DNA from: Aquisphaera giovannonii
GTDB lineage: Bacteria; Planctomycetota; Planctomycetia; Isosphaerales; Isosphaeraceae
Length of the DNA stretch: 64,000 nt
Reading direction: 5' to 3'
Assembly (NCBI RefSeq): GCF_008087625.1
Contig: NZ_CP042997.1
Location: 7,998,001 to 8,062,000, forward strand
The notes under the pieces are model-generated. The model was not told where the DNA came from. It saw only the letters and a list, made by a program, of their open reading frames with translations, and searched no databases. Position 1 is the first letter of the stretch. The number at the start of each line of letters is the position of its first letter. Positions 45,247 to 55,034 of this stretch are shown here, piece by piece. Made by a program: the position numbers and the translations under genes.

Positions 45247-47614
45247 GTGACGCATGCCATGTGGAGAGACGCGGCCGACGCGGCGAGGGCCGTGGCACCG
45301 GACGAGGTCGATGGCCGGCTCCTGGCGATCTTCCTCGCCCGCGAGGGGCCGTCCGCGGAGCTGGCGTTCCGGCGTATCGTCGAGCGGCATGCCGATGCCG
45401 TCGTGCGGGCCTGCCGCCGGGTGCTCGGCGATCATCACCGGGCGCAGGACGCGGCGCAGGCCGTCTTCCTGGTCCTCGCCCGGAACGCACGGTCGATCCG
45501 GCGGCCCGATTCGCTCGAGGCGTGGCTGCATGGCGTCGCCCTGCGAGTCGCCCGGAGGGCCCGGGACGGCGAGGCTCGTCGCCGGAGGGCCGAGGATCGG
45601 GCCCGGGCCGAGCGGAGCCGGGGCCGGCCGGCCCCGACCGACGAGGCGTACCAGGAACTGCACGAGGAGCTGGCCTCCCTGCCGGACCGCTACCGCCTGC
45701 CGATCATCCTCTGCTACTTCGAGGGCTACACCCAGGAGGAGGCGGCCCGCGTCCTCGGCTGGCCGTACGGCACGGTCCAGGTCCGCCTCCACCGGGCCCG
45801 CAAGCGACTCCGCGAGGCCATGGCGCGGCGCGACCCGGCCCTCCGCGGCGCAATGATGGCGATCCTCGGTCGGCCCGGGGTGCCCTCGAATCCGCCGAGC
45901 GCCGCCTGGGCGGCCGAGACGGCGAGGGCCGCGGTCCAGCTCGCCGGCACGGGCATCGCCGGGGTCGTCGCGCCGTCCGTGGCGTCGCTGGCCTGCGCGG
46001 AGACGGGGATTGCCGCCGGGGCCCCGTTCCTGCCCGGGCTCGGGATCCTGGCGGCGTGCCTGGCCGCCTGCGGGATCTGGTACGCCGGTCCCACGCCCCC
46101 CGGCCGAGCTCCCGCCGCGGGCATCGACGTCCCGGATCGCGGCGGCCGCCGAGGCCGGTCAGGCCGTCGCCGAGGCTTCCCCTGTCGGCGCGGCGGGCGG
46201 GGCGAGGAGGCCATCGCCGAGCAGAGCGAACGGGGCGATTTCGTCGGCGAAGCCGGGGCCATCCGCACCGATCGCCCGGCCTTCGGTGGCGAACTCGGCG
46301 GCGGACGCCGGGCCACCGGCCCGGGAGCGCCCCGAAGAGCCGGCGGGGCGGCCCAATCTCGTGGACGGCCGCGAGCTCTTCGAGCGGGTCTGGGCCGTGA
46401 ACGACCCGCGGGGCCACGGCGGCGACGGCCTGGGGCCGGTGTTCAACGCGCGGTCGTGCGTCGAGTGCCACGACCGGGGTGGGACCGGCGGGGGCGGGCT
46501 CGCGGGCCGGAACATCGACGTCGCGACCGTCGGCGTGCCGGGCGATGCCGGCGGCGGCTTCTTCTACTCGTTCAGCATGAACTTCGGCGGCGACGGCTTC
46601 CAGTACCGCTTCGGCTACGACCCGACCGCGGCCGGTGCGGCGGCCCGGAGCGCCGGCGACCGGGCCGCGGCCGCGGCCGCGGCCGCGCATCCCGGGTTCC
46701 TCGAATCGCCGAGCGTGGTGCTGCATCGCTTCGGCGTCGACCCCTCGTACCAGGCCTGGCGGGCCACCGTCCCCGGCCCTCACGGCACCCTCAACGTGGC
46801 GATCTCGCAGCGGAACCCGACGCCGCTGTTCGGCGCCGGTCTGATCGAGTCGATCCCCGACGAGGCGATCCTCGCCGCCGCGAGGCGGAGGAACTCGCAA
46901 TCCCGGGGCCGGGTCAGCCGCGTCGAGGGCGGGCGCATCGGCCGGTTCGGCTGGAAGGCCCAGGCCGCGACCCTGGCCGAGTTCGTCCGGTCCGCGGCCT
47001 CCGGCGAGCTGGGCCTGGAGGTCCCCGGCCGCCGCCAGGCCGACGACCCCCGCCTGCCCGGCGGCCTCTCGCCGGGCCTGGACATGGACGAGGCGGACTG
47101 CGAGGCGCTGACGCGGTTCGTCCGCGACCTGCCCCGCCCCGTCGCGTTCGCGCCCGCCGCCGCGAAGGAGGCCATCGACGTCGAGGAGGGGTCGCGGGCC
47201 TTCCGGTCCATCGGCTGCGCGGTCTGCCACCTGCCGAGGCTCGGCGACGTGGACGGCCTCTACAGCGACCTCCTGCTCCACGACATGGGCCCGGACCTCT
47301 CGGACGTCGGCGGCTACGCCGTCTTCGGCGCCGGCCCCCTCGCCGCCCCGGCCGCGGCCGCCCCCGACCCGGCGCGGGCCGACCGTCCTGACACCCGGGC
47401 GCGCGAGTGGCGGACGCCGCCGCTCTGGGGCCTCCGCGACTCCGGGCCTTACCTCCACGACGGCCGAGCGGCCACCGTCTCGCAGGCCATCCTGCTCCAC
47501 GGCGGCCAAGGGTTGCCCTCGGCCGAGCGCTTCGCCCGACTTTCCGCCCGCCGCCGTCGCCAGGTCGAGGCCTTCCTCATGACCCTCTCCGCCCCCGCCC
47601 GCCCCGCCGGTTGA
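45247..47614 (+). pseudogene. ECF sigma factor fused to di-haem oxidoreductase, broken by an apparent frameshift
   Basis: The first part (GTG 45247, ribosome site AGGGAGG) reads as an ECF sigma factor: FRRIVERHADAVVRACRRVLGDHHRAQDAAQ (sigma-2) and LPDRYRLPIILCYFEGYTQEEAARVLGWPYGTV (sigma-4). A hydrophobic segment near FLPGLGILAACLAACGIWYA follows. Then, in the next frame (+1), comes a DUF1111-type di-haem oxidoreductase with CVECH and CAVCH, GDGLGPVFNARSC, IGRFGWKAQAATLAEFVRS and the family end LRDSGPYLHDGRA, to 47614. The frame changes somewhere between about 46090 and 46330. The first frame stays open until 47391 but with an unnatural arginine-rich sequence, so a frameshift in one fused gene is more likely than two genes; a sequencing error is possible, as is a real break. 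Confidence 0.75.
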
Positions 47615-48320
47615 CGGGGACGGGCCGCACCGCCACCGGGCGGAGAGCCTGCCGGAGCAGGCCGCCACGCGCCTTTCTTTGCTGTTTCCAAAGCCCGTCG
47701 CAGGCCGGGATGGCGATGTCCCCGGGCGACGGCGGGACGACGCCCGGGGAGCCGCCGCGTCGCGAGTCGGTCAGGGCCGTATGCCCTCGAGCTCGTGCGA
47801 CCCATGTCCTAAGAGCGGCTGGGGCGCGCACGGGGACCGAACCCCGCGATGTTCGTGTCCGCACGGCGGCGACGCAAGCCGAGGCCGATGAGGTCGCAGT
47901 CCGGAGCCGAATCAGAGTGGGTGTCCCGGTGCTGGTCCTCGCCCTGGCGTGGCCGCCAAGGTCGTTTAACTTGGCCTGAAGGACCCGCGTGGAAATCCGA
48001 GTTCGAATAGGATAGCGGGGGCCTGCCCGCCGCGGACGTCCGCCGGCATGCCTCGGGGCCGACATCGCGGACGCCGGGATCGGACCCCGCGGGTCGGTGG
48101 AGCGGCTGGCGTCGGGGCAGCCGGCTCGCAGAGCCGCCCGGTCACGAAGCCGCGGCGCCGGGACCGGGGCCCCGACCCCGATCCGACGTCGCCACATGGT
48201 CTTACCGCCAGCAGCCCCCGATCGTCTCGTGTGACTTGTCCGAAAGCTGCAACCCGATCGGCCCACCGTTACATTACTAGGGACGGTGAAGAGACGGCAC
48301 GCTGGGCGAGGGTCAGGACG
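47615..48320. other. Intergenic region
   Basis: This 706-base gap contains no convincing gene; open frames in it are short, arginine-rich or opposite to a gene. A less G+C-rich patch, CGTTACATTACTAGGGACGG at 48267-48286, lies just before the sigma-TolC gene and may be part of its promoter. Confidence 0.4.
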
Positions 48321-50552
48321 GTGGCGATCGCGAAGGACCGAACCATTACGCGTCAGCTCGCGGCCCTCTTCGACGCCGGGGCGATCCGCGCGCTGACGGA
48401 CGGGCAACTGCTGGAACGATACAGGCGAGGCGACGGCGAGCCCGCGGAGCTCGCCTTTGCGGCCCTGGTGGAGCGCCACGGCGAGATGGTGCTGCGCGTC
48501 TGCCGAGCCCGGCTGGCGGACCCCCAGGATCGGCAGGACGCCTTCCAGGCGACGTTCCTGGTGCTGATCGAGAGGGCCCGAAGCCTCTGGGTGAGGGATT
48601 CGCTGGGCCCCTGGCTGCACCAGGTCGCGTTGCGGACGGCCTCCCGTGCCCGGGCGTCCGCGATCCGCCGGAGGCGGCTCGAAGGCGAGGCGGCCGAGGT
48701 CGCGGCCAATCGCGAGCCGCACGAGGCGGGTGTCCCGCCGGAGGTCGCGGCCGTCCTCCACGAGGAGATCGGGCGCCTGCCCGGACGTTACCGCGTGCCG
48801 ATCGTGCTCTGCGACCTCGAGGGCCGCACCTGCGAGGAGGCGGCGAGGCTGCTGGGCAGGCCGGTCGGCACGATCAAGTCCTGGCGGTCGCGGGGCCGCG
48901 ACCTCCTGCGACGCCGGCTGATCCGGGCGGGCCTGGCGCCCGCCATCGGGATCGAGGCCGTCATCGCCGCGGATATCGCCCGGGCTTCCGGATCGGATGC
49001 GACGGCCGGGCGGATGGTCCGGGCCGCGATCCGGATGGGATCGGAGGGGTCGGGCGTCGGGATCGTCCCGGCGTCGGTTCGCACGCTTTCCAGAGGAGTC
49101 GCTCGATCGATGTTACGCCAACAAGGGGGGATGATCCTGGCGGGGCTCCTGGTCGCCGCCGGCCTCGGCACCGGGATCGCGGCGGCGATGCAGGCCGGCG
49201 GCGACGGGGCGAGGCGGCCGGCCGATGCCGCGGCGGGGGCGGCCCATCGGCGGCCCGCCGCGCCGCCGCCCCCGGACGTACCGGCCGCCGCCGCGCCTGG
49301 CGGCGAGACCTGGCCGCTGTCCCTCCGCGACGCCATCCGGATCGGGCTGGAGAACAGCGAGGCCGTCCGGGTGATCGAGCCCGATGCGAAGGGCGGGCCC
49401 GCCGAGGGACGCGAGGCGGCGCGACCGGGGGCGGCCGACGGCGTGTCGCCGCTGGTCATCGCCCCCGCGTCGCCGACCGGCGATCTCGAGCGGTTCCGGT
49501 CCGACGTCATGGGCAAGGTCCGCCGGATCGCGTTCGAGTACTGGTTCCTCTCGGCGGCCCACGTCCGCGTCTGGGCGTCCGAGCGGGCCGTCGCCGAGGC
49601 GAAGGAGATCCGCGATCGCGAGCAGGCCGAGCTCGTCGCGGGCAAGGGGGTGGTGGGCGATGTCGCCGAGGCCGCCCAGCGGCTCGAGCAGTTCAGCCTC
49701 GACCTGGTGACCCGGACCTCCGACCTGATGACCCACGAGCGGCAGCTCCGCAAGCTGATGGGGACGCCAGCGGCCGACAACCGCAGGATCGTCCCGACCA
49801 CGCCACCTCGTCACGTCGAGGACCCGCCGGCCCTGAAGCGATGCCTGGCGGACCTGTTCGCGAATCAGCCGGAGGTCCTCCGGGCGAAGCGACTCCTTAC
49901 CGACGGCCAGGGTCATCGGGCCGAGGACCTGGACGGGGCGGCCGAGGCCCTCATCCCGGAGCTCGCCGACGGCGCGGGTGGGCCGGCCGCGTTGCACGAG
50001 GCGCAGGCCCTCCTCGAGCCGTTCGGGGCGGGGAGCCTGGCCCTGCGCCAGGCCATCGACCAGGCCAGGGGCGCGGTGGTCCGCTCGCGCCAGGAGGCCG
50101 AGCAGAAGTCTCGCCAGTTCCAGAACGCGGCCCGGCTGCGAATCGCCGCCGGCCAGCGACTCGACGCCCAGCGGGCCTACCATGAGGAACGCCGGATCAC
50201 GATCGACCGCATCCTCGACGCGGTCAGCCAGTATTACGACTCCGTGGGCAAGGAGGCCGACTACCGGGCGCAGTACGCCATCGCCATGGACTCGCTCGAG
50301 GCGGACGAGGGAACCCTCCTCAAGACGGCCGGGATCGCGACGGCGGAAGCACCACGAAGCGAGCCGGCTCCACTCCATCGCCAGGCGATCGGCGCCGGGC
50401 GAGCCGCCGAAGCCGCCGAACGCCCAAGGGCGGGCGAGGACGCCCCGGGGACGGACACCACCGGCAGGACTTTCTCCTTCCACTTCACGCTCAAGACCGG
50501 CCCCAGACCGATCGAGGTCCATGGATCATTCACCGTCGGGCCGGCCCGCTAG
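48321..50552 (+). CDS. ECF sigma factor fused to a TolC-like domain
   Basis: A 743-residue protein. The GTG at 48321 (VAIAKDRTITRQLAALFDAG) is chosen because family members start here; no ATG is near. The ECF sigma part includes LVERHGEMVLRVCRARLADPQDRQDAFQATFL and LPGRYRVPIVLCDLEGRTCEEAARLLGRPVGTIKSW. A membrane segment GGMILAGLLVAAGLGTGIAAAM lies near residue 275. After a proline-rich linker, WPLSLRDAIRIGLENSEAVRVI, then GDVAEAAQRLEQFSLDLVTR and RQLRKLMGTPAADNRRIVPT match planctomycete TolC homologues (efflux outer-membrane factor domain). It is expected to lie across the inner membrane with the TolC-like part outside. A sigma factor fused to this domain is unusual. Confidence 0.82.
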   Translation: MAIAKDRTITRQLAALFDAGAIRALTDGQLLERYRRGDGEPAELAFAALVERHGEMVLRVCRARLADPQDRQDAFQATFLVLIERARSLWVRDSLGPWLHQVALRTASRARASAIRRRRLEGEAAEVAANREPHEAGVPPEVAAVLHEEIGRLPGRYRVPIVLCDLEGRTCEEAARLLGRPVGTIKSWRSRGRDLLRRRLIRAGLAPAIGIEAVIAADIARASGSDATAGRMVRAAIRMGSEGSGVGIVPASVRTLSRGVARSMLRQQGGMILAGLLVAAGLGTGIAAAMQAGGDGARRPADAAAGAAHRRPAAPPPPDVPAAAAPGGETWPLSLRDAIRIGLENSEAVRVIEPDAKGGPAEGREAARPGAADGVSPLVIAPASPTGDLERFRSDVMGKVRRIAFEYWFLSAAHVRVWASERAVAEAKEIRDREQAELVAGKGVVGDVAEAAQRLEQFSLDLVTRTSDLMTHERQLRKLMGTPAADNRRIVPTTPPRHVEDPPALKRCLADLFANQPEVLRAKRLLTDGQGHRAEDLDGAAEALIPELADGAGGPAALHEAQALLEPFGAGSLALRQAIDQARGAVVRSRQEAEQKSRQFQNAARLRIAAGQRLDAQRAYHEERRITIDRILDAVSQYYDSVGKEADYRAQYAIAMDSLEADEGTLLKTAGIATAEAPRSEPAPLHRQAIGAGRAAEAAERPRAGEDAPGTDTTGRTFSFHFTLKTGPRPIEVHGSFTVGPAR

Positions 50553-51639
50553 GGGACGCCTGCCGCGAACATGAAAGAGGCGGGAGCCGTGGCCCGCCGG
50601 CGTCGACTCCGGGCAGAGTCGATTGGAATCGTCAAACGGTCCGGGAAAGGGCGGGCGGTGCACCCGGCGACACGGCTGCTTCTCGATCCTTCCAACGATT
50701 TGCGAGGGGCCGAGAGGCAGACCTGATCCGGCGGGGCGACGCCCCGAGGAGGCGGCCCGGAAGACGTTCGAGCGGTCTCGACGAAAGTCGCGATGATCGG
50801 GGCGAGTCGATCGCTGCGAATCAGTAACCTGTATTCTACCCATCCCGCCATTCGCCCCTGGCATCTTACCGCCATCAACGACATTGGACCGGGAGGTCTC
50901 CCCGCCGGCTTGACGAGCCAATACAAGCTCAGCAGGAGCGGCCCGCGTCCGACGACCGGGCGCGTTCCAACGGCGGCGGGAGCCGCCTCCGCGCGGCGAC
51001 CGGGCGAGCCGCGGCCCGCACGGATACCTGCTGGATTACGGGCGGCTTGAGGTGGTTCCTGTGCCCCCGTCTCCAGTGTCCCGTACGGGGCTCGCGACCT
51101 CCTAGCTGGATCCGCCGTAGAGCGTTTTTCCCGGCTCCGACTGACGCCGGCGGCAGGCAGGCACGGCGTGCAGATGGGGCCCCCGGGATCACGATTCCGA
51201 CACCGCCCTGGCGCCGGGTCACGGGCACGGGGAGCCGGCGGGGCGCGTCCGCGTTATGGCCCATCTCCCGAATGAGCCGATCGAGTCGACCGGCATCGCC
51301 GGCCCGTTGCCGTGGTCCGACTCGGGGCAAATCGGCGTCGGACACGGGGCGGGTATGGATTTCGGACCCGGTATCGCCGGCGCATTGGCGATGATCGGGT
51401 GTATATTCTCTTTAGGGACTAGATTCTTAAACTGGAGGGCCGGCCCGTCGCGTCTTGCCGGCCCTGCCGCCACAAGCACACTATTGAGCATCGGCGCGTC
51501 GCAGAGGACGAGTCTGCGAGGCCCGACGCGCCCCACGCATCTGGAAATTCGGGCCGCCTCGGCATGATGGGCCGGCACGTCCCGCGTCCCCCATTTGGCC
51601 GGCCCATCGCGAGCGTCCAGGTCACTCGGAAACCCGTCC
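50553..51639. other. Long intergenic region before the histidine kinase
   Basis: A gap of 1087 bases with no convincing gene. It contains a copy of the dispersed repeat (50975-51018), and near 51399-51432 a lower-G+C stretch (TGTATATTCTCTTTAGGGAC, then TAGATTCTTAAAC) that is a candidate promoter of the kinase gene. A 103-residue open frame at 51256 is proline- and glycine-rich and not convincing. Confidence 0.45.
50975..51018 (+). repeat. Dispersed GC-rich repeat, copy C
   Basis: Reads GCGGGAGCCGCCTCC, then GCGCGGCGACCGGGCGAGCC, then GCGGCCCG, the same order as copy A at 30791 with several substitutions. Confidence 0.7.
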
Positions 51640-54600
51640 ATGGATCACGTCCATCATGCCGCCCCGGGGAGCTTCCCGTGGGACCTCTTCGAAGTCTTCA
51701 CGCCGCGCCGGCAGTGCATGAACTTCGAGGCGGACGTCATCTGGCTCCACTTCGTCTCCGACCTGCTGATCGCCGCCGCCTATTTCTCCATACCCATCGC
51801 GCTGGTCCGCGTCGCCGGCCGTAGGCCGGGGCTGCGGTACAACTGGATGCTCAACCTGTTCGCGCTGTTCATCGTGCTCTGCGGCACGACCCACCTGTTC
51901 AACGTCTGGGCCCTCTGGCAGCCGCTCTACCGGCTCGACGGCCTGGTGAAATTCGTGACCGGGGTCGTCTCCGCCGCGACGGCCGCGACGCTCTGGCGGC
52001 TGATCCCGAAGGTGCTGACCGTCCCGACGGCCGCGGAGCTTGCCCGCCTCGCCGAGGAGCGGGCCGAGGAATTGCGGGCGAGCGAGGCGACCCTGCGGGC
52101 CTTCTACGACAGCGCGCCGGTGCTCATGGGCGTCGTCGAGCCGCTCCCCGACGGCGACCTCCTCCACCATTACGACAACCGCGCCGCGTGCGCCTTCTTC
52201 GGCGTCGCCCCCGAGGGCACGCAGGGCCGGCGCGCGAGCGAGATGGGGGGGGCGACCGCGATCATCCGCGAGTGGCTCCCCCGCGGCGAGGAGGCGGGGG
52301 AGCCCGGCCGGACGAGCCGATTCGAACGCGGGGTCGAGACGCCCGGGGGCACGCGCTGGCTCGTGGCCTCCGTGGGCCCCCTCGGCGCCGCCCGCTCGGG
52401 CCCCGCGCGGTTCTGCTACGTGGCCGAGGACGTCACGGAGCGGAGGGCGGCCGGGGCGGCCCTCCGCGCGGCGGAGGAGCGGTTCGAATTCGTCCGCCGC
52501 TCCGCCGGCGTGGGGTTCTGGTACTGCGACCTGCCGTTCGAGGAGCTGGAGTGGGACGACCTGGTGAAGGGGCATTACCACCTCCCGCGCGACGCCCGCG
52601 TCACGATCGAGGCCTTCTACGAGCGGCTCCACCCCGACGACCGCGACGCCACGCGAAGGGCCATCGAGCGGAGCATCGCGGAGCGGTCCCCGTACGACGT
52701 CCGGCATCGCACGGTGGCCCCCGGCGGGACCTCCGAGAAGTGGATCCGGGCGATGGGCCGCACCTGGTATGACGCCGACGGCACCCCCCGCCGATTCGAC
52801 GGCGTGACGATCGACGTCACCGACGAGGTGCGGGCGGACGAGGAGCGGGCCCGGCTCCTCCGCGAGGTGGAGACCGAGCGGGCGAGGCTCGCCGACGTCT
52901 TCCAGCGGGCGCCGTCGTTCATGTGCGTCCTCCGCGGCACGGACCACGTCTTCGAGCGGGCCAACGACCATTACCTGAAGCTGATCGGCCGCCGCGACGT
53001 CATCGGCAAGCCCGCCCGCCTGGCCCTCCCGGAGGTGGAGGGCCAGGGCTACTTCGAGACGCTCGACCGCGTCTACCGCACGGGCCAGGCCGTCTCCGGC
53101 TCGGGGCAGAGCCTGCGGATCGCCCGTCGCCCCGGCGAGCCCCCGGAGGAGCTGTTCGTCGACTTCGTCTACCAGCCCATGCGGGAGCCCGACGGGTCGG
53201 TGGGCGGCATCATCGTCCAGGGCATCGACGTCACCGACCGCCTCCGCGCCGAGGAGGCGCTGAGGGGCCAGGAGAGGCGGTTCCAGCAGCTCGCCGAGTT
53301 CATCCCCCAGCTCGCCTGGATGGCCCGGCCCGACGGCTACGTCTTCTGGCACAACCAGCGCTGGTACGAGTACACCGGCGCCAGGCCCGAGGACGTGGAG
53401 GGCTGGGGCTGGCGATCGGTCCACGACCCGGCCCTCGCGCCGGGCATCCTCGACCGCTGGCGGGCCTCCATCGCCGCGGGGCGGCCGTTCGAGATGGTCT
53501 TCCCGCTCCGCGGCGCCGACGGCCGGTTCCGGCGGTTCCTCACGCGGGTCGCCCCGTTCAAGGACGGCGACGAGATCCAGCTCTGGTTCGGCACCAACAC
53601 GGACATCGAGGACCAGCTCCGCGGGCAGGACGAGCGCGAGCGGCTGCTGAGGCAGGCGGAGGCGGCGAAGGAGGAGGCGGAGGCCGCCAACCGCATGAAG
53701 GACGAGTTCCTCGCCGTCCTGTCGCACGAGCTCCGCACGCCGCTCAACGCCATCATCGGGTGGGCCCGGATCCTCCGCACGCCCGGCATCGGCGAGGAGG
53801 ACAGGGCCGAGGGCCTGGACGTCATCGACCGCAACGCCAAGGTCCAGGCCCAGCTCATCGAGGACCTGCTGGACATCTCGCGCATCATCACGGGCAAGCT
53901 CGTCCTGGACGTGCAGCGGGTCGACCTGGGCGAGGTCGTCGGCGCGGCCCTGGACGCCGTCGCCCCCGCCGCCCAGGCCAAGGGGATCCGGATCACCAAG
54001 GTGCTCGACCCGTCCGCCGGCCCCGTCTCGGGCGACCCCAACCGGCTCCAGCAGGTCGTCTGGAACCTGCTCACCAACGCCGTCAAGTTCACGCCCGGCG
54101 GCGGCCAGGTCCAGGTGCTCCTGGAGCGGGTCAACTCGCACGTCGAGCTCTCCGTCATCGACACCGGCCAGGGCATCGCGCCGGAGTTCCTGCCCCACGC
54201 CTTCGACCGCTTCCGCCAGGCGGACGGCTCCACCACGCGGAGGCACGGGGGCCTGGGCCTGGGCCTGTCCATCGTCAAGCAGCTCGCCGAGATGCACGGC
54301 GGGTCGGTCCGCGTGAAGAGCCCCGGCGAGGGCCAGGGCTCGACGTTCGTCGTGGCCCTCCCCATCGCGGCCGTCCTGCCGGAGCAAGCGGGCCCGGCCC
54401 GGCCGGGCCAGCCCGGCGTCGCCCCGTCGTCCGACCCGTGCGAGGGCAACCAGCTCGGCGGCCTCCGGGTCCTGCTGGTCGACGACGAGCCCGACGCGAG
54501 GCACCTGATGAGCCGCGTCCTGGGGGGCTGCGGGGCCGACGTGGAGGCCGCCTCGTCGGTCGCCGAGGCCCTCGACCGCATCGGCGACTTCAGGCCGGAC

Positions 54601-54843
54601 GTCCTCATCAGCGACATCGGGATGCCCGAGCGGGACGGATACGACCTGATCCGGAACGTCCGCCGGATCTTCTCCGCCAAGGACCTCCCGGCCGCGGCGC
54701 TCACGGCCTTCGCCCGCCCCGAGGACCGGATGCGGGCCATGCGCGCGGGCTTCCAGGTGCACGTGGCCAAGCCGGTGGACCCCGAGGAGCTGGTCGCCGT
54801 CGTCGCGACCCTGGCCGCCAGGACCGGCCAGGGCGACCTGTAA
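51640..54843 (+). CDS. Hybrid sensor histidine kinase with ethylene-receptor-like membrane domain
   Basis: A 1067-residue protein from the ATG at 51640 (MDHVHHAAPGSFPWDLFEVF). Residues about 33-115 have three membrane helices with SDLLIAAAYFSIPIAL and FIVLCGTTHLFNVWAL. They match the ethylene-binding domain of plant ETR1: Asp41, Tyr48, Cys81 and His85 fall at the same spacing as ETR1 Asp25, Tyr32, Cys65 and His69, the copper/ethylene site. Then come about four PAS/PAC domains (residues ~145-660), a HisKA domain with LSHELRTP (His696), an ATPase domain (NLLTNAVKFTPGGG, DTGQGIAPEFL, GGLGLGLSIVKQL) and a receiver with phosphorylatable Asp992 (ISDIGMPERDGYDL). It should be an inner-membrane sensor of ethylene or a similar small ligand. 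Output partner not seen. Confidence 0.92.
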   Translation: MDHVHHAAPGSFPWDLFEVFTPRRQCMNFEADVIWLHFVSDLLIAAAYFSIPIALVRVAGRRPGLRYNWMLNLFALFIVLCGTTHLFNVWALWQPLYRLDGLVKFVTGVVSAATAATLWRLIPKVLTVPTAAELARLAEERAEELRASEATLRAFYDSAPVLMGVVEPLPDGDLLHHYDNRAACAFFGVAPEGTQGRRASEMGGATAIIREWLPRGEEAGEPGRTSRFERGVETPGGTRWLVASVGPLGAARSGPARFCYVAEDVTERRAAGAALRAAEERFEFVRRSAGVGFWYCDLPFEELEWDDLVKGHYHLPRDARVTIEAFYERLHPDDRDATRRAIERSIAERSPYDVRHRTVAPGGTSEKWIRAMGRTWYDADGTPRRFDGVTIDVTDEVRADEERARLLREVETERARLADVFQRAPSFMCVLRGTDHVFERANDHYLKLIGRRDVIGKPARLALPEVEGQGYFETLDRVYRTGQAVSGSGQSLRIARRPGEPPEELFVDFVYQPMREPDGSVGGIIVQGIDVTDRLRAEEALRGQERRFQQLAEFIPQLAWMARPDGYVFWHNQRWYEYTGARPEDVEGWGWRSVHDPALAPGILDRWRASIAAGRPFEMVFPLRGADGRFRRFLTRVAPFKDGDEIQLWFGTNTDIEDQLRGQDERERLLRQAEAAKEEAEAANRMKDEFLAVLSHELRTPLNAIIGWARILRTPGIGEEDRAEGLDVIDRNAKVQAQLIEDLLDISRIITGKLVLDVQRVDLGEVVGAALDAVAPAAQAKGIRITKVLDPSAGPVSGDPNRLQQVVWNLLTNAVKFTPGGGQVQVLLERVNSHVELSVIDTGQGIAPEFLPHAFDRFRQADGSTTRRHGGLGLGLSIVKQLAEMHGGSVRVKSPGEGQGSTFVVALPIAAVLPEQAGPARPGQPGVAPSSDPCEGNQLGGLRVLLVDDEPDARHLMSRVLGGCGADVEAASSVAEALDRIGDFRPDVLISDIGMPERDGYDLIRNVRRIFSAKDLPAAALTAFARPEDRMRAMRAGFQVHVAKPVDPEELVAVVATLAARTGQGDL

Positions 54844-55034
54844 CCCGCGGTCGGGGTCCCATCCGTGACGGAGAGATGCGGAGTCGGTCCGCCCCGAGCC
54901 CTCGTCGGCGACGCCGGTGAATGCGGCGAGACGTTCCCGGGCGGTCACCGCGAAAGGGAAGTGTGTACGCCTCCGGCTCCCCCCGGCCGGAGGGAGCCGT
55001 GACGCACCTCGACGCGCAGGTCAGGCCGCTCGCG

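Follow-up and report, generated by a model that had tools for sequence, protein, structure and literature searches.

An ETR1-type ethylene-binding domain on a hybrid histidine kinase of the planctomycete Aquisphaera giovannonii: a putative copper-dependent ethylene sensor

The kinase gene and its surroundings

The DNA analysed here, referred to as the window, is a stretch of 64,000 nucleotides from Aquisphaera giovannonii (NCBI RefSeq assembly GCF_008087625.1, contig NZ_CP042997.1, positions 7,998,001-8,062,000, forward strand). Coordinates are positions in this window, and residue numbers are those of a 1067-aa protein encoded at 51640-54843 on the forward strand. A previous sequence-only reading had placed a hybrid histidine kinase at this position, and the ORF list agrees with it on location and length. 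An alternative in-frame start, TTG, is at 51595. A long antisense ORF (51622-54948, reverse strand) is interpreted as a shadow frame that high GC content creates opposite the kinase gene. The features of the gene are:

51640-54843 (+): hybrid histidine kinase of 1067 aa carrying the ethylene-binding domain at its N-terminus (ORF list, Pfam)
51715-51717 (+): Cys26, near-invariant, 15 residues ahead of D41 (alignments)
51736-52020 (+): ethylene-binding domain (Pfam ETR1_N, PF25487), residues 33-127, with three predicted membrane helices (Pfam, hydropathy, AlphaFold2)
51760-51795 (+): helix 1 site, D41, Y48, I51 and P52 (alignment, motif search)
51871-51894 (+): helix 2 site, I78, C81 and H85, the last two matching the copper-site C65 and H69 of ETR1 (alignment, motif; PMC6586836)
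52072-53604 (+): PAS region with about four PAS domains, residues ~145-655 (Pfam; first PAS by inspection)
53695-53889 (+): HisKA, residues 686-750, phospho-acceptor H696 (Pfam, motif)
54031-54366 (+): HATPase_c, residues 798-909, with intact N, G1, F and G2 boxes (Pfam, motif)
54469-54804 (+): receiver (Response_reg), residues 944-1055, phospho-acceptor D992 (Pfam, motif)

The upstream neighbour, at 48048-50552, is a fusion in which an ECF-type sigma factor (regions 2 and 4) continues into a long C-terminal extension that matches OEP (outer-membrane efflux) weakly. At 45247-47614 the ORF list has another ECF sigma factor frame followed by an overlapping di-haem oxidoreductase frame (DHOR, a putative peroxidase). 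The downstream neighbour, on the other strand, is a xylose-isomerase-like TIM barrel. No regulator gene adjoins the kinase among the neighbouring genes scanned. The lack of a linked regulator, and of any functional context from the neighbours, counts against the explanation of the protein as an ethylene sensor. The genome also encodes HPt domains and copper-transporting P-type ATPases, and these could serve the phosphorelay and copper needs of such a sensor.

The ethylene-binding domain and the signalling domains

Residues 33-127 match the Pfam family ETR1_N (PF25487, 'Ethylene receptor 1-like, N-terminal domain') with an E value of 9.8e-37 and a score of 125.6 bits where the cut-off is 27, a match well outside chance, which places the N-terminus in the ethylene-receptor family. 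The residues of plant ETR1 that are essential for ethylene binding have been described (PMC6586836, PMC11819568). All seven are present in the A. giovannonii protein with identical spacing, as judged by alignment and pattern: D41, Y48, I51, P52, I78, C81 and H85 correspond to ETR1 D25, Y32, I35, P36, I62, C65 and H69, respectively. Tyr32 is said to have been recognised as one of the essential residues by Wang and colleagues in 2006. A search of the 1067 residues for D-x6-Y-x2-I-P-x25-I-x2-C-x3-H gives a single match, and K104 lines up with Lys91 of ETR1. The Pfam match does not depend on the ETR1 sequence used in these alignments and so tests them independently. The spacing of D41, Y48, C81 and H85 given by the sequence-only reading is exact, and its pairing of I51 and I78 with Ile35 and Ile62 was borne out, with P52 matching Pro36 as well. 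By profile and alignment, then, this N-terminal domain of 95 residues can be assigned to the ETR1 ethylene-binding-domain family, with every residue of the ethylene/copper site kept.

AlphaFold2, run on a 53-row alignment of the A. giovannonii protein and proteins from related loci, gave a monomer model (mean pLDDT 90.3) with three long helices at residues 31-61, 68-91 and 97-125, as expected for the three-helix domain that had been proposed. Hydropathy peaks in this domain lie at 38, 74 and 101. Predicted helix 1 bears D41, Y48, I51 and P52, helix 2 bears I78, C81 and H85, and helix 3 bears K104. The model of ETR1 has Cys65 and His69 on helix 2 holding one Cu(I) per monomer (PMC6586836), and the predicted helix layout agrees with such a Cys/His copper site. 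Profile, residues and predicted fold all support the identification of the protein as an ETR1-type receptor kinase. No solved relative of the domain was found in the PDB, either by sequence or by fold search; NCBIfam has no model for the domain, and the NCBIfam kinase matches listed are general ones below their cut-offs.

A cysteine equivalent to Cys26, 15 residues before the helix 1 Asp, is present in 83/83 and 50/54 rows of two sets of bacterial ethylene-binding domains, where it lies in motifs such as PRRQC, PHGxC and RWxC. ETR1 has the dimer-linking Cys4 and Cys6 nearby, but their spacing is unlike that of the bacterial cysteine.

Behind the sensor domain, Pfam finds PAS_3 at 317-389, PAS_4 at 424-534 and PAS at 547-653, and the first PAS was recognised by inspection. 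Several stretches between the ethylene-binding domain and HisKA thus match PAS models, and the earlier count of about four was right in substance. HisKA, HATPase_c and Response_reg all score above their Pfam cut-offs. Motif inspection finds the H, N, G1, F and G2 boxes of the kinase and the DD/D/T/K set of the receiver complete, and the phospho-acceptors His696 and Asp992 are exactly where they had been predicted.

A light signal through the PAS domains had also been suggested. The Synechocystis receptor SynEtr1 is a precedent, as it is bifunctional and responds to both ethylene and light (PMC11819568), and a light receptor could use either a LOV-type PAS or a bilin-binding GAF domain. However, a motif search of the protein found no NCRFLQ-type LOV cysteine motif and a Pfam scan found no GAF domain in it. 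The suggestion is thus unsupported: a LOV photoreceptor kinase and a dual light/ethylene receptor of the SynEtr1 type, with its chromophore-binding GAF, were both ruled out, and we regard a light receptor of any such kind as extremely improbable.

Distribution and descent of the domain

The same ETR1_N profile was run across sampled genomes. The domain was found in 32 of 98 cyanobacterial genomes (33%), 28 of 294 Planctomycetota (10%), 23 of 299 Pseudomonadota (8%) and 9 of 145 Verrucomicrobiota (6%), and in none of 14 control genomes. It is present in 25 of 59 close relatives and, within the Isosphaeraceae, in 16 of 37 genomes, so the rarity in planctomycetes that the sequence-only reading implied was wrong. 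The A. giovannonii genome has a single copy by profile search. Of the 39 planctomycete members scanned, 38 have HisKA and 38 have HATPase_c, and non-kinase outputs such as a Ser/Thr kinase or a cyclase were not seen among the 39.

The copper-site residues are conserved among these homologues. Cys is kept in 52 and His in 51 of 53 aligned planctomycete rows. A second set, with rows almost exclusively of other phyla, has Cys in 83/83 and His in 82/83 rows, although its rows were picked by similarity to the A. giovannonii domain and are biased towards intact sites. Altered sites (Cys to Ser, His to Arg, or Asp to Asn or His) occur in five planctomycete copies, L047, L048, L049, L050 and L054, of which L050 is from the genus Aquisphaera itself. 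Three of the family copies (L049, L050 and L054) are clearly decayed, and copies with the Asp to Asn/His change still have the Cys and His.

The domain is also present without a kinase. A fold search against viral models gave one significant match. The Maribacter phages Molly and Colly, both isolates, encode a kinase-less ETR1_N domain in a 289-aa 'hypothetical protein' (E 1.5e-16; in Molly_1 at L244:5953-6822, MT732451.1 36990-37859), and several IMG/VR contigs encode kinase-less ETR1_N proteins of 158-279 aa. Phage or viral contigs with such proteins are L236, L239, L240, L242 and L243. No PHROGs model matches these kinase-less proteins. Six phage/viral domains were aligned: all of them have the Cys, the His, the Tyr and the Cys that precedes helix 1, and the Asp is frequently missing. 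The gene after the ETR1_N protein in Molly encodes an N-acetylmuramoyl-L-alanine amidase and an endolysin lies ~1.8 kb from the one in L240, which makes a lysis-related role one option for the kinase-less phage domain. Another contig filed as viral has an ETR1_N-type domain fused to STAS instead of a kinase (L241:5902-6966).

These conservation patterns bear on the ligand. The domain might hold Cu(I) and sense something other than ethylene, such as CO, acetylene, another alkene, or the copper or redox state. Both the Asp to Asn/His deviants and the phage forms retain Cys and His while other residues of the ethylene site vary; moreover, no literature tying planctomycetes to ethylene or its receptors was found, although an earlier mention in reviews is possible. 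However, the A. giovannonii protein keeps all seven residues required for ethylene, beyond Cys and His, and two bacterial relatives with the same site, SynEtr1 of Synechocystis and AzoEtr1 of Azospirillum, bind ethylene (PMC11819568). We therefore consider a different ligand unlikely, while giving it more weight than the other alternatives.

In a domain tree the A. giovannonii domain groups with those of Paludisphaera soli, two Phycisphaerae MAGs and one MAG each of Verrucomicrobiales and 'Micavibrio' (MAG taxonomy as submitted). This small cross-phylum clade has support of 99/97 in a first tree and 99/94 in an enlarged one, to which cyanobacteria, Pseudomonadota and Verrucomicrobiota were added in samples that had not been picked by similarity to the A. 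giovannonii domain. The main planctomycete domains form a separate clade of 37 rows (100/100). It includes L033, from the same genus as the window, and the A. giovannonii domain falls outside it. The main planctomycete kinases (motif FPxRWxCG, e.g., L033) belong to the same Pfam family, have the site residues and are mostly hybrid kinases, but forcing the A. giovannonii and P. soli domains into their clade was rejected (p-AU 0.009, on an alignment of only 114-115 columns and for a grouping defined after the tree was seen). The simplest reading of the domain tree would be transfer of the domain between phyla; old duplication and loss may be an alternative.

The remainder of the protein has other relatives. 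The kinase-receiver core (residues 685-1064) shares 75.5% identity over 380 aa with a kinase of the same family (genome G309) whose 732-aa ORF has no ethylene-binding domain. The ORFs retrieved for the next-best kinase cores (45-68% identity) lack the domain as well and have PAS, GAF or receiver domains in its place. The closest ethylene-binding domain, with 68% identity, is that of P. soli JC670 (L076:5932-7980). This kinase is from the Isosphaeraceae as well, and it shares the PRRQCMN motif and a fused receiver, but it is shorter, has one PAS region and is only ~37% identical in the rest of the kinase. A tblastx comparison with P. soli, which gave many short chance pieces and was interpreted for the kinase gene only, showed no obvious shared gene order beyond the kinase itself. 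Since the sensor is closest to one protein and the core to another, the gene is, on sequence comparison, a domain-swap chimera of a sensor and a family-specific kinase-receiver core, and the sensor was probably joined to the core after lateral transfer. No orthologue of the A. giovannonii sensor type is present in the two sampled congeners, the first of which carries the main planctomycete type and a weak match and the second a degenerate copy only; this counts against the explanation of the protein as an ethylene sensor of chimeric origin.

A chimera of this kind might use its N-terminal domain as a membrane anchor only and leave the sensing of redox or a cytosolic ligand to the PAS domains. 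PAS domains account for about half of the protein, and, as noted above, the closest kinase cores carry other sensors. However, there would be little reason for a mere anchor to keep the seven site residues, which are conserved across phyla, and the decayed copies elsewhere in the family are a further argument against it. We consider this explanation quite unlikely.

A putative ethylene sensor and its meaning

Our favoured explanation, which we consider likely but hold with caution, is that the protein is a bacterial ethylene receptor of the membrane sensor-kinase type, a copper-dependent ethylene sensor of chimeric origin that feeds a phosphorelay. It draws on the profile match, the seven site residues, the AlphaFold2 helices, the complete kinase and receiver motifs, the Cys/His conservation, the copper P-type ATPases and HPt domains of the genome, and the ethylene-binding bacterial relatives. 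The kinase would act as a dimer in which Cys81 and His85 of each subunit hold one Cu(I) within the membrane. Binding of ethylene at the copper would shift the helices, and this shift would pass through the PAS chain and alter autophosphorylation of His696. The phosphate would presumably then move from His696 to Asp992 and on to an unlinked HPt protein or response regulator.

Such a protein would resemble the known ethylene receptors in part. Like Arabidopsis ETR1, it has a predicted three-helix domain with the same site spacing, the Lys91 equivalent, a histidine kinase and a receiver; the identity to the ETR1 sequence used, ~37-42%, is confined to the domain, PAS domains are present instead of a GAF domain, and the kinase core is a bacterial hybrid one. 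SynEtr1 (Slr1212) is also a bacterial kinase with the same N-terminal domain, but a chromophore-binding GAF domain and the downstream regulator Slr1213 (PMC7700396) set it apart: the A. giovannonii protein lacks a GAF, has no regulator next to it and carries its own receiver. The plan of ethylene-binding domain, PAS and kinase is shared with AzoEtr1 of Azospirillum brasilense, which binds ethylene (PMC11819568); however, AzoEtr1 has 525 aa, one PAS and a separate response-regulator gene, compared with 1067 aa, about four PAS and a fused receiver.

SynEtr1 and AzoEtr1, which both bind ethylene, signal through kinases, putative receptors have been reported from further bacterial phyla, chiefly proteobacteria (PMC11819568, PMC7700396, PMC10518463), and the variety of output domains has already been noted (PMC7700396). 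This kind of receptor is therefore known across many bacteria, but its role in Planctomycetota appears unstudied, and no binding or copper assay for a planctomycete member was found in the literature. Tentatively, and at somewhat less than even confidence, we suggest that planctomycetes sense ethylene in their environment through two receptor lineages acquired separately, of which the one described here moved between phyla as a sensor module and became joined to a kinase-receiver core of local origin.

Very few bacteria have been demonstrated to sense ethylene. If the explanation given above is true, there would be an undescribed ethylene response in Planctomycetota, where many genomes encode the full binding site, including those of cultured carriers such as P. 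soli. The case would also present the ethylene-binding domain as a mobile module that moves between unrelated kinases and between phyla.
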